DNA from: Candidatus Peregrinibacteria bacterium
Lineage (GTDB): Bacteria; Patescibacteriota; Gracilibacteria; UBA1369
Direction: 5' to 3'
NCBI GenBank assembly: GCA_020851415.1
Contig: JADZCU010000044.1
Span: 33,671-97,670, forward strand
Length of the DNA stretch: 64,000 bases
The position numbers and the translations under genes are program-made. Positions 42,149 to 45,148 of this stretch are shown one piece after another; positions within the stretch are counted from its first letter, which is position 1, and every line of letters begins with the position of its first letter. Under the pieces are notes generated by a model. The model was not told the origin of the DNA. It worked only from the letters and a program-made list of their open reading frames with translations, and did not search any database.

Positions 42149-42316
42149 ATGTTTTCACGTTTATTTGCACCAATAACAGTAGCCCGACTTTTTGACCCAA
42201 TGCCACTGCCACGACGTATGCGCTTGGCTACGCAGCGAGTGAAAACCGGCAAAAACTTTGCACCGGTTATTCACGCTCCTTCATTCAAAATGAAAAAAAT
42301 CCCTTTATATCGATAA
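42149..42316 (+). CDS. Possible small basic protein (55 aa)
   Basis: An ATG-to-TAA frame below the track's size cut-off. The product is rich in Arg and Lys with Pro and Met (PMPLPRRMRLATQRVKTGK), ending in KMKKIPLYR, soluble and without a known motif. No Shine-Dalgarno sequence or clear promoter is seen, but neighbours also lack the former. It could be a real small nucleic-acid-binding protein or chance; weak support only. Confidence 0.25.
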   Translation: MFSRLFAPITVARLFDPMPLPRRMRLATQRVKTGKNFAPVIHAPSFKMKKIPLYR

Positions 42317-43270: not shown

Positions 43271-43298
43271 TAGACAATAGAAAATCGACGAGTATAAT
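43271..43298 (+). promoter_or_regulatory. Promoter of the attenuator-DUF62 unit
   Basis: TAGACA, 16 bases and TATAAT, with the predicted start near 43305, about 17 bases before the leader ATG. The same TAGACA -35 variant is used at the purP promoter. Confidence 0.6.
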
Positions 43299-43321
43299 CG
43301 GGATGTAATTTTCAATTTTAC

Positions 43322-43411
43322 ATGCAAATTTCCTTCGCAAAATCTGAACAGACCAACATGATGATGTCTATGATGATGCTTTCTCAGCGAAGGTTTGAGT
43401 TTGTGGCGTAA
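43322..43411 (+). CDS. Met-rich leader peptide of a transcription attenuator
   Basis: A 29-codon frame, too short for the ORF track. Codons 13-15 and 17-19 are all ATG, giving MMMSMMM; seven of 29 residues are Met. It ends in TAATAG at 43409, directly after RNA segment 2. The layout parallels the his, phe and trp leader peptides, where slow decoding of the regulating amino acid decides the RNA fold. No Shine-Dalgarno sequence, as is usual in this window. Its function would be its translation, not the peptide. Confidence 0.7.
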   Translation: MQISFAKSEQTNMMMSMMMLSQRRFEFVA

Positions 43412-43463
43412 TAGAATAACTTACAAAACTCCAAAGCCTTCGCAACTGCGAGGGCTTTTTTTT
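43332..43463 (+). promoter_or_regulatory. Ribosome-mediated attenuator (segments 1-4)
   Basis: Four segments can pair alternatively. Segment 1 CCTTCGC (43332-43338) and segment 2 GCGAAGG (43387-43393) pair within the leader ORF. Segment 2, extended as GCGAAGGTTTGAGTTTG, pairs with CAAAACTCCAAAGCCTTCGC (43424-43443) in about 17 bp with three single-base bulges: the antiterminator. Segment 3 AAAGCCTTCGC (43433-43443) pairs with segment 4 GCGAGGGCTTT (43448-43458), followed by eight T: the terminator. A ribosome stalled on the Met codons leaves 2 free to pair with 3; one at the stop codon covers 2 and lets 3:4 form. Confidence 0.75.
43433..43463 (+). terminator. Attenuator terminator hairpin
   Basis: AAAGCCTTCGC and GCGAGGGCTTT form 11 pairs (one G-U) around the loop AACT, followed by TTTTTTTT counted from the stem end. 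It precedes the DUF62 start by 32 bases. Confidence 0.85.
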
Positions 43464-43494
43464 AAATCCATATTACTTTTTAATTTTCTTCTCT

Positions 43495-44757
43495 ATGTCT
43501 TCTCTGGATTCCCGAACTGCTGGTACTTCTGAAGGATTAGAAACTTCCACTGATCTTGCAGCACAAGTTCATTTGCCTGAAAGTAGTCCACCATCATCCG
43601 GTGAACGTGCGCTTTTACCGGGTGAAGTTGATGGCGAACTTTCTCAGTTTCGACTGAGAATAGCACAAAATAGAGAACAGTTTCCTGATCATCGGAGTGT
43701 TGTTGTGGTGAGTGATCTGGATGATTTGGCCAGTGGCCAGGTGGCTGCATCTATTCGCGAGCAGGGGCCGCGAGGGGCAAATTTTCAGGTGGCGGAATTT
43801 AACGGAGTGCACCCTTATAATTTGATCTCAGCTGCACATACGTTGGCGGCACTTCTTTCTGACAAGAAAAATTTTCCGGCGGGTAGTATTTTTGTGATAG
43901 TTGTTGACCCACATGTGGGTCAGAATGGCCATGATGGTCAAAATGTTGCTGATAAGCGGGCAATTATTGAGTATGAAGATGGAACTGTTTTGGTTGGACC
44001 GGCGAGGTCTTACATGAGAACTGGTGAGTTTCATGGACGTGGAAAAATTGCCCGTGCCGTGGAGATTGATAAGGATCGCCTGGTTGCCTTGGGATTGACT
44101 GAAAATAAGGGTAATGATGTCTTTGACGGGCTTCGAAGGTTTGGTCCTGCAGCCGCGGCTGCACTTCATTCTGTGCCACTGGAAGAGCTGGGATCACCGA
44201 TTGATGTGGAAAAAATCCCCGTGTTAGAAATACCTGATGGAACCATTTCCGATATTGAGCCAAACTATCAAAATATCCGAGTAGAAACTGCCTATGACCG
44301 TTTTCCGATCGGATCTGATTTGGCAGTGAGAGATGCTGAAGGTAATTTGCTGTGCATTGCCAAAAGAAGGCAGGCTTTTGAGGGAGAAAAGGGTGATATT
44401 GTTGCAGTGAACGGAAGCAAATTTTTGGTTACGGATGACGGAAAAGGCAAGAAGGGTTTGTATTTGGGGGCGGTCCAGGGGCAACTTGCCGGGCTTCTGA
44501 GCGAAAAGTTTGGGAAGCAGGTTGAGGTTGGAGACAGGCTGGTTGTAGATATAGCTACACAGGAGGAAATTGATCGATATAGTGCGGAGAAAACCTTGAT
44601 TGAGCTGAAGGAGTCAGCTCAGGATTTGGTGACCGCAATAGGCGGTAAAATTGAGACTGAGATCGCGTCGATACTTGGCTCGCATCAGAGTGTTGGAGAC
44701 ATTGTTTCCGGTGTTTCGAAAAAGCTTCGAAAGGTTGCACAATGGCTTAGGGCATAA
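43495..44757 (+). CDS. SAM hydroxide adenosyltransferase-like protein (DUF62 family)
   Basis: 420 aa, longer than typical members (about 260 aa) by extra N- and C-terminal regions. I recognise the DUF62 fold from RSVVVVSDLDD (for the TDFG strand), NLISAAHTLAALLSDKKNFPAGSIFVIVVDPHVG (for AA..L..YFP.GTVHVAVVDPGVG), RAIIEYEDGTVLVGPA, VFDGLRRFGPAAAAAL (for FHGRDIFAPAAA), and a C-terminal beta barrel with DGTISDIEPNYQN. Known members hydrolyse S-adenosylmethionine to adenosine and methionine. The catalytic Asp (VVDP) is kept; Arg may be the one in DKRAI after an insertion; the catalytic His appears to be Asp. A Met-codon attenuator lies directly upstream. Confidence 0.55.
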   Translation: MSSLDSRTAGTSEGLETSTDLAAQVHLPESSPPSSGERALLPGEVDGELSQFRLRIAQNREQFPDHRSVVVVSDLDDLASGQVAASIREQGPRGANFQVAEFNGVHPYNLISAAHTLAALLSDKKNFPAGSIFVIVVDPHVGQNGHDGQNVADKRAIIEYEDGTVLVGPARSYMRTGEFHGRGKIARAVEIDKDRLVALGLTENKGNDVFDGLRRFGPAAAAALHSVPLEELGSPIDVEKIPVLEIPDGTISDIEPNYQNIRVETAYDRFPIGSDLAVRDAEGNLLCIAKRRQAFEGEKGDIVAVNGSKFLVTDDGKGKKGLYLGAVQGQLAGLLSEKFGKQVEVGDRLVVDIATQEEIDRYSAEKTLIELKESAQDLVTAIGGKIETEIASILGSHQSVGDIVSGVSKKLRKVAQWLRA

Positions 44758-44824: not shown

Positions 44825-45148
44825 ATGGAGTGTAAATTTGTAAAAATTGCGGTGTTTGCTCCCGCCACGCATGGTGATGTTATCCGCAAGGCTTTAGCTG
44901 ATGCGGGTGCAGGGCACATTGGTAATTATGATTTTTGCTCTTTTTCCTCCAGAGGAGTGGGACGATTCCGCGGACTTGAAGGAACAGATCCTTTTATTGG
45001 TAAACCGGGAAAGATTGAAGAGGTGGATGAAGAAAAAATCGAGGTTATTTGCCCCTCGGATATTTTGAAAAAAGCGCTGGATGCCGTTCGAACTGTTCAC
45101 CCTTATGAAGAACCTGCGATTGATATTTATCCCCTGTTGAACGAGTAA
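44825..45148 (+). CDS. Stand-alone NIF3/YqfO insert domain (CutA/PII-like)
   Basis: 107 aa. It corresponds to the PII/CutA-like insert of YqfO (NIF3 family): FAPATHGDVIRKALADAGAGHIGNYDFCSFSS, FRGLEGTDPFIGKPGKIEEV and VRTVHPYEEPAIDIYPL. The flanking metal-binding NIF3 halves are absent. Trimeric PII-like folds bind small ligands or metals; function unknown. Its stop is immediately followed by the mutS ATG, so they are coupled. Confidence 0.9.
   Translation: MECKFVKIAVFAPATHGDVIRKALADAGAGHIGNYDFCSFSSRGVGRFRGLEGTDPFIGKPGKIEEVDEEKIEVICPSDILKKALDAVRTVHPYEEPAIDIYPLLNE

Follow-up and report, generated by a model that had tools for sequence, protein, structure and literature searches.

The closest described counterparts of the locus analysed here are the trp, his, leu and phe attenuators (Leu_leader, RF00512; Phe_leader, RF01859), with which it shares a run of control codons, alternative antiterminator and terminator structures and a leader stop codon at segment 2. 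It differs from them in the control codon (methionine), in the non-proteobacterial host, in the mostly leaderless leaders of its class and in the regulated genes, which encode probable SAM-cleaving enzymes and homocysteine methyltransferases. SAM riboswitches, Met T-boxes and MetJ perform the same task, the control of methionine and SAM genes, by a different sensing principle. Actinobacterial attenuators with Cys, Trp or Leu runs (PMC1262725; leaderless leuL and trpL of Streptomyces lividans, PMC8079986) also place a short ORF with a one-codon run, sometimes leaderless, before a pathway gene, but they are built on other amino acids. A survey of these attenuators saw no conserved regulatory RNA structure in the regions preceding methionine operons (PMC1262725). 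For methionine itself, a leader peptide (metL) was proposed before metNIQ of S. lividans, without a typical terminator (PMC8079986). Like most of the present leaders, metL is a proposed methionine-dependent leaderless leader before a methionine gene; however, it is a single case with only two internal Met residues (CMCRRMCAF) and no run, and we regard it as a weak precedent. No other reports of methionine-tuned leader-peptide attenuators, including any from Patescibacteria, were found in the open-access literature, and an established case of a leader peptide that responds to methionine is not known to us. The original prediction, made from the DNA alone, had called methionine-sensing leader peptides unknown in other bacteria; in view of metL this was slightly too strong. 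What is new is classical ribosome-mediated attenuation with methionine control codons, in a new lineage and with mostly leaderless leaders.

The analysed DNA (hereafter, the window) is a stretch of 64,000 nucleotides from contig JADZCU010000044.1 of a Candidatus Peregrinibacteria bacterium. We consider it highly probable that the window contains a ribosome-mediated transcription attenuator sensing charged Met-tRNA, located before a probable SAM-cleaving gene. The predicted promoter, Met leader ORF, RNA segments and T8 tract were all found where they had been placed, as checked by script (Table 1).

Table 1. Features of the attenuator locus and its downstream genes (positions within the window)
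Feature	Position	Strand	Basis or remark
Sigma-70-like promoter, TAGACA - 16 - TATAAT	43271-43298	+	11/12 consensus match; -35 box TAGACA 43271-43276, 16-nt spacer, -10 box TATAAT 43293-43298
Leader ORF, 29 codons, MQISFAKSEQTNMMMSMMMLSQRRFEFVA	43322-43411	+	Sequence; Met run kept in orthologous and analogous leaders
Control codons ATGATGATG-TCT-ATGATGATG	43358-43378	+	Met codons 43358-43366 and 43370-43378, one TCT between
Segment 1, CCTTCGC core, partner of segment 2	about 43317-43339	+	1:2 duplex, MFE structure
Segment 2, GCGAAGG core, overlapping the final leader codons and the stop codon	43386-43410	+	
Segment 3, partner of segment 2 (antiterminator) or of segment 4	43419-43444	+	
3:4 intrinsic terminator	43433-43463	+	11-bp hairpin 43433-43458 and T8 43456-43463
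SAM_HAT_N/DUF62-family gene, 420 aa, presumed regulated gene	43495-44757	+	Pfam, predicted fold, alignment
CutA/P-II-like gene, 107 aa, adjoining mutS	44825-45148	+	Kept downstream neighbour of the regulated enzyme

The leader peptide reads MQISFAKSEQTN-MMM-S-MMM-LSQRRFEFVA, and the stop codon that closes it (43409-43411) coincides with the end of segment 2. The DNA pattern ATGATGNNNATGATGATG occurs only once in the whole 1.42-Mb genome. Three mutually exclusive pairings are available to the transcript, namely 1:2, the 2:3 antiterminator and the 3:4 terminator followed by T8, the terminator hairpin (-16.9 kcal/mol) being located between the leader ORF and the start codon of the structural gene. 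Compared with dinucleotide shuffles, the whole leader folds better than expected (z = -3.1; 2 of 200 shuffles were as good). Of the alternative pairings that had been proposed, the 2:3 duplex reaches -23.8 kcal/mol and is better than its shuffles (p = 0.007), while the 1:2 duplex forms a strong hairpin with a borderline p value (-20.4 kcal/mol, p = 0.055). A search of the family for the pattern GCGAAGG-N-CCTTCGC gave no further attenuators. A covariation count on the 7-mer cores was partly circular, because the cores had been chosen for pairing, and it is not used as main evidence.

The protein encoded downstream of the terminator belongs firmly to the DUF62 fold and family. It matches PF01887 (SAM_HAT_N) with E=1.1e-9 (38.7 bits against a cut-off of 26.3). 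Its AlphaFold2 model (mean pLDDT 70) was compared with the PDB using Foldseek, and only the SAM hydrolase/halogenase fold was significant (E down to 7.6e-15, prob 1.0), including the SAM hydrolases 2zbv and 2wr8 (E about 1e-14); phmmer against PDB sequences gave no match. In DUF62 proteins, a His-Arg-Asp triad is described as strictly conserved and as activating the water (PMC10491745). In the window protein, D138 and R154 are aligned with the triad, and D211 replaces the His. Thus, the family named in the original prediction and the fold are firm, whereas SAM hydrolysis remains an inference. According to the alignment, Asp also takes the place of the triad His in L003 and L108, and the canonical L104-L106 keep His. 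In the chemistry of fluorinases, chlorinases and DUF62 enzymes, attack on SAM frees methionine whatever the nucleophile. The window enzyme probably cleaves SAM with release of methionine, an activity that is likewise inferred. As a side observation, residue 211 (alignment A1) is Asp in the DUF62 proteins with a Met leader (G000, G005 and G255) and His in those without (G224, G225 and G238), so that within the DUF62 set the presence of the leader correlates with an active-site residue (3 versus 3 genes).

With the DUF62 protein as the sole query, a single close orthologue was found, in G005 (WJJQ01000039.1, Candidatus Peregrinibacteria). A homologous locus without the Met run or the alternative pairing would have refuted the predicted attenuator; the G005 locus has both, with the promoter TTGACA-16-TATAAT, the leader MKITLALQIAAKNMMDMMMPMMFFMRRLG and its own 2:3 pairing and 3:4 terminator. 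The CutA-like gene adjoins mutS in G000, G003, G005, G007, G009, G010 and G011. At this syntenic locus, the gene behind the leader encodes DUF62 in G000 and G005 and a homocysteine S-methyltransferase (HMT; PF02574, E 7e-34 for the G011 protein) in G007, G009 and G011, three other members of the family, the codon run of G007 and G011 being identical to that of the window. Hence, two unrelated enzymes replace each other behind the same leader at one locus. In G003 and G010, the CutA-like-mutS pair is present without either enzyme and without the leader. This exchange of enzymes, together with the joint absence, indicates that the leader travels with a methionine-yielding function rather than with one protein family. 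Apart from the attenuator, the window has an ORF of about 55 aa (42149-42316, + strand) with the motif RLFDPMPLPR. Since G009 (L072) and G003 (L073) have it as well, downstream of lexA, this conserved ORF probably encodes a real small basic protein.

A wider set was opened by searching genomes of the same class with a Met-run DNA pattern. Most matches were discarded as wrong-frame Asp, His or Ile runs inside genes, and L007 and L008, considered as leaders with a terminator, were rejected because, in a lineage that reads TGA, they are the Asp-rich C-terminal parts of a coding gene. In all, 38 Met-run leaders were compiled (the window, G005 and 36 further ones), and they come from at least eight families. 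The downstream gene could be assigned for 30 of them and could not for eight, which include small ORFs before hisS and others. All 30 assignable genes belong to methionine/SAM metabolism and none lies outside it: 15 encode HMT (PF02574), three DUF62 (PF01887), nine divergent DUF62-like proteins, two MetA (PF04204, E 2e-60 and 3e-130) and one a MetY-type protein (Cys_Met_Meta_PP, a Cys/Met-metabolism PLP enzyme, 8e-134). Selection relied for most leaders on the Met run itself, so that their Met content carries no independent weight; the independent evidence consists of gene function, pairing and spacing. For 22 of the 30 assigned leaders, the source was the Met-run pattern or the window itself, with no use of the gene; the leaders before MetA, MetY-type and approximately 320-aa DUF62-like genes all came from this gene-agnostic pattern. 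Short Met-rich ORFs are rare, being present in 3 of 850 overlapping 300-nt stretches of the window (both strands), whereas 15 of the 26 PF02574 genes found in 353 genomes of the class have one upstream. In addition to these 15, the HMT gene of G206 has a weaker MMM ORF. No Met leader was found before the HMT genes from outside the class (L172 and L173). The leader of the DUF62 gene of G255 is MKLLLSLLMQMMMHLVRGYCRV. Methionine is a fitting signal for such leaders, because the enzymes encoded behind the control codons (HMT, MetA, MetY and DUF62) all produce methionine, each along its own route.

Several further arrangements were observed within the set. A divergent family of about 300-370 aa, with the motifs SDTYGG, N.APR, QFRS and D.YGN and almost no Pfam match, lies behind the Met leaders of L119, L132, L134, L143, L149, L150, L154, L157 and L161. 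Foldseek places it in the DUF62 fold (E 3e-8, prob 1.0, low TM), and one member gives a SAM_HAT_C match below the cut-off; comparing its profile with that of the DUF62 set gave no significant similarity (prob 9%). The putative link of this family to DUF62 therefore rests on the predicted fold and that single sub-cut-off match. In G082, from a lineage that reads TGA as Gly (code 25), the Met leader MSISYNAMMMNMMMPAIRR and a terminator precede a 375-aa protein (L013:1644-2771) with weak similarity to the DUF62-like family (NNASR, QFRS). In G038, the Met leader is followed by a 319-aa methyltransferase-like gene (L038:1621-2580) and then by a canonical HMT as the second gene of the operon; the former is possibly a partner of HMT that makes the methyl donor. 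In family f31 (L130, L131, L133, L135 and L137), a Met leader with a terminator stands before small unassigned ORFs of about 70-90 aa, followed by hisS, and these leaders rank among the best conserved.

The geometry of the leaders is shared across the set. All but two of the 38 gave a terminator call, and 2:3 pairing was significant (p<0.05 against shuffles, median p 0.007) at 35 of these 36 loci despite diverged sequences; 1:2 pairing was only weakly supported (p<0.05 in 11 of 38). The distance to segment 2 is 19-31 nt from the first Met codon of the run and 1-13 nt from the last, typically about 27 and 7 nt, and the stop codon is located at the end of segment 2. The leading edge of a ribosome is about 12-15 nt ahead of its decoding site. 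Given this spacing, segment 2 is free when a ribosome stalls early in the run and is covered when one stands at the stop codon. Textbook ribosome-mediated attenuators have the same geometry, in agreement with the layout originally ascribed to the window. What the data show of the proposed attenuator is its anatomy, its alternative pairings, the retained Met run and spacing, and its association with methionine/SAM genes.

In the absence of transcript, ribosome-profiling or reporter data, ribosome stalling, leader translation, the direction of control and the enzyme activity are inferred. We suggest the following scheme. RNA polymerase would start about 17 nt before the leader ATG, with a ribosome trailing it. 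When Met-tRNA is plentiful, the ribosome would pass the six Met codons, reach the stop and cover segment 2, after which segments 3 and 4 would form the terminator and transcription would stop at T8. When Met-tRNA is scarce, the ribosome would stall within the Met run, with segment 2 still about 27 nt ahead of it and segment 1 behind it; the free segment 2 could then pair with segment 3, the terminator would be blocked and the enzyme gene would be transcribed. Without translation, 1:2 pairing would favour termination. The DUF62-fold enzyme would free methionine from SAM, which would close a feedback loop.

The same RNA switch could in principle be operated by nascent-peptide arrest, in which a Met-rich peptide stalls the ribosome together with a small molecule such as SAM, as in plant CGS1. 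The regulated enzymes (DUF62, HMT) act no less on SAM than on methionine, and Arg or Arg-Arg often directly follows the Met run. However, in the 36 further leaders the Met run is kept while other residues drift: the peptides share only their Met density, the position and number of Met vary freely, and the interrupting residue may be S, D, A, Q, N, H, P or L. Known arrest peptides are not so freely variable in sequence. The leaders before MetA and MetY also fit amino-acid starvation, and we consider peptide arrest unlikely.

The way in which the leaders begin bears on another possibility, namely that the ATG run senses initiation (the supply of fMet-tRNA or formyl-folate) or is a cluster of alternative starts rather than a row of elongator-Met codons. 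Most related leaders have a TTGAC[AT]-16/17-TANNNT promoter at the equivalent position, and in 27 of the 34 with a recognisable promoter the start codon (ATG or GTG) lies 4-9 nt after the -10 element. These 27 leaders are probably leaderless; this, and the use of AUG as start codon too, would speak for an initiation sensor. The run, however, belongs to a frame that has a start and a stop of its own and sits tens of nucleotides into that frame, several leaders starting with GTG retain the internal ATG run, and the relevant ribosome position is set by the spacing to segment 2. We therefore find an initiation sensor very unlikely, and elongator-Met codons read by a translating ribosome remain the preferred reading. 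A minority of leaders, including that of the window, have a short A/T-rich 5' UTR and no Shine-Dalgarno sequence; in the window it measures only about 17 nt. The window leader is thus not strictly leaderless, and its translation is inferred by analogy.

In other bacteria, control of such genes falls to SAM riboswitches and Met T-boxes, and a ligand-binding riboswitch or T-box accompanied by a fortuitous ORF might be supposed. The Rfam models of SAM riboswitches and T-boxes matched neither the window nor the related loci, and the only notable matches, Leu_leader (the best in the window, 30 bits against a cut-off of 50) and Phe_leader, both sub-threshold, are themselves leader-peptide attenuators; moreover, no conserved fold exists beyond the switch, which leaves this explanation extremely improbable. 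Terminators are common between genes and chance Met runs occur, but an unregulated terminator beside a chance short ORF is scarcely credible when promoter, Met leader, 2:3 pairing and terminator recur with fixed spacing before methionine/SAM genes in at least eight families.

Ribosome-mediated attenuation by charged Met-tRNA also agrees with the gene content of these organisms. MetK is present in G000, G005, G007, G009 and G011, MetE was not found in any of these five, and G000 and G005 have no PF02574 protein (which would include MetH). It follows that G000 and G005 can make SAM from methionine but cannot make methionine by these routes, and enzymes returning methionine from SAM are a sensible target of a methionine-starvation switch. 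In the literature on (R,S)-SAM, DUF62 enzymes hydrolyse it and the yeast HMTs Mht1 and Sam4 consume it. It has been doubted that hydrolysis is the physiological role (PMC12120602), and the connection of both enzyme types at this locus through (R,S)-SAM is our inference. More tentatively, and with somewhat less than even confidence, we propose a class-wide methionine leader-peptide regulon in Patescibacteria of the Gracilibacteria/Peregrinibacteria type that defines new methionine-salvage enzymes. His-replaced DUF62, divergent DUF62-like proteins and stand-alone HMT would then be interchangeable, starvation-induced means of recovering methionine from SAM, with the damaged (R,S)-SAM epimer as a possible source.

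Comparative support for the methionine-tuned attenuator extends over an entire bacterial class and concerns a lineage, the Patescibacteria, in which almost no regulation is known. Methionine is also a harder control amino acid than others, since it begins every protein. As an indicator of the needs of the cell, the leader provides functional leads, and the SDTYGG family and the His-less DUF62 proteins become candidate methionine-yielding enzymes.
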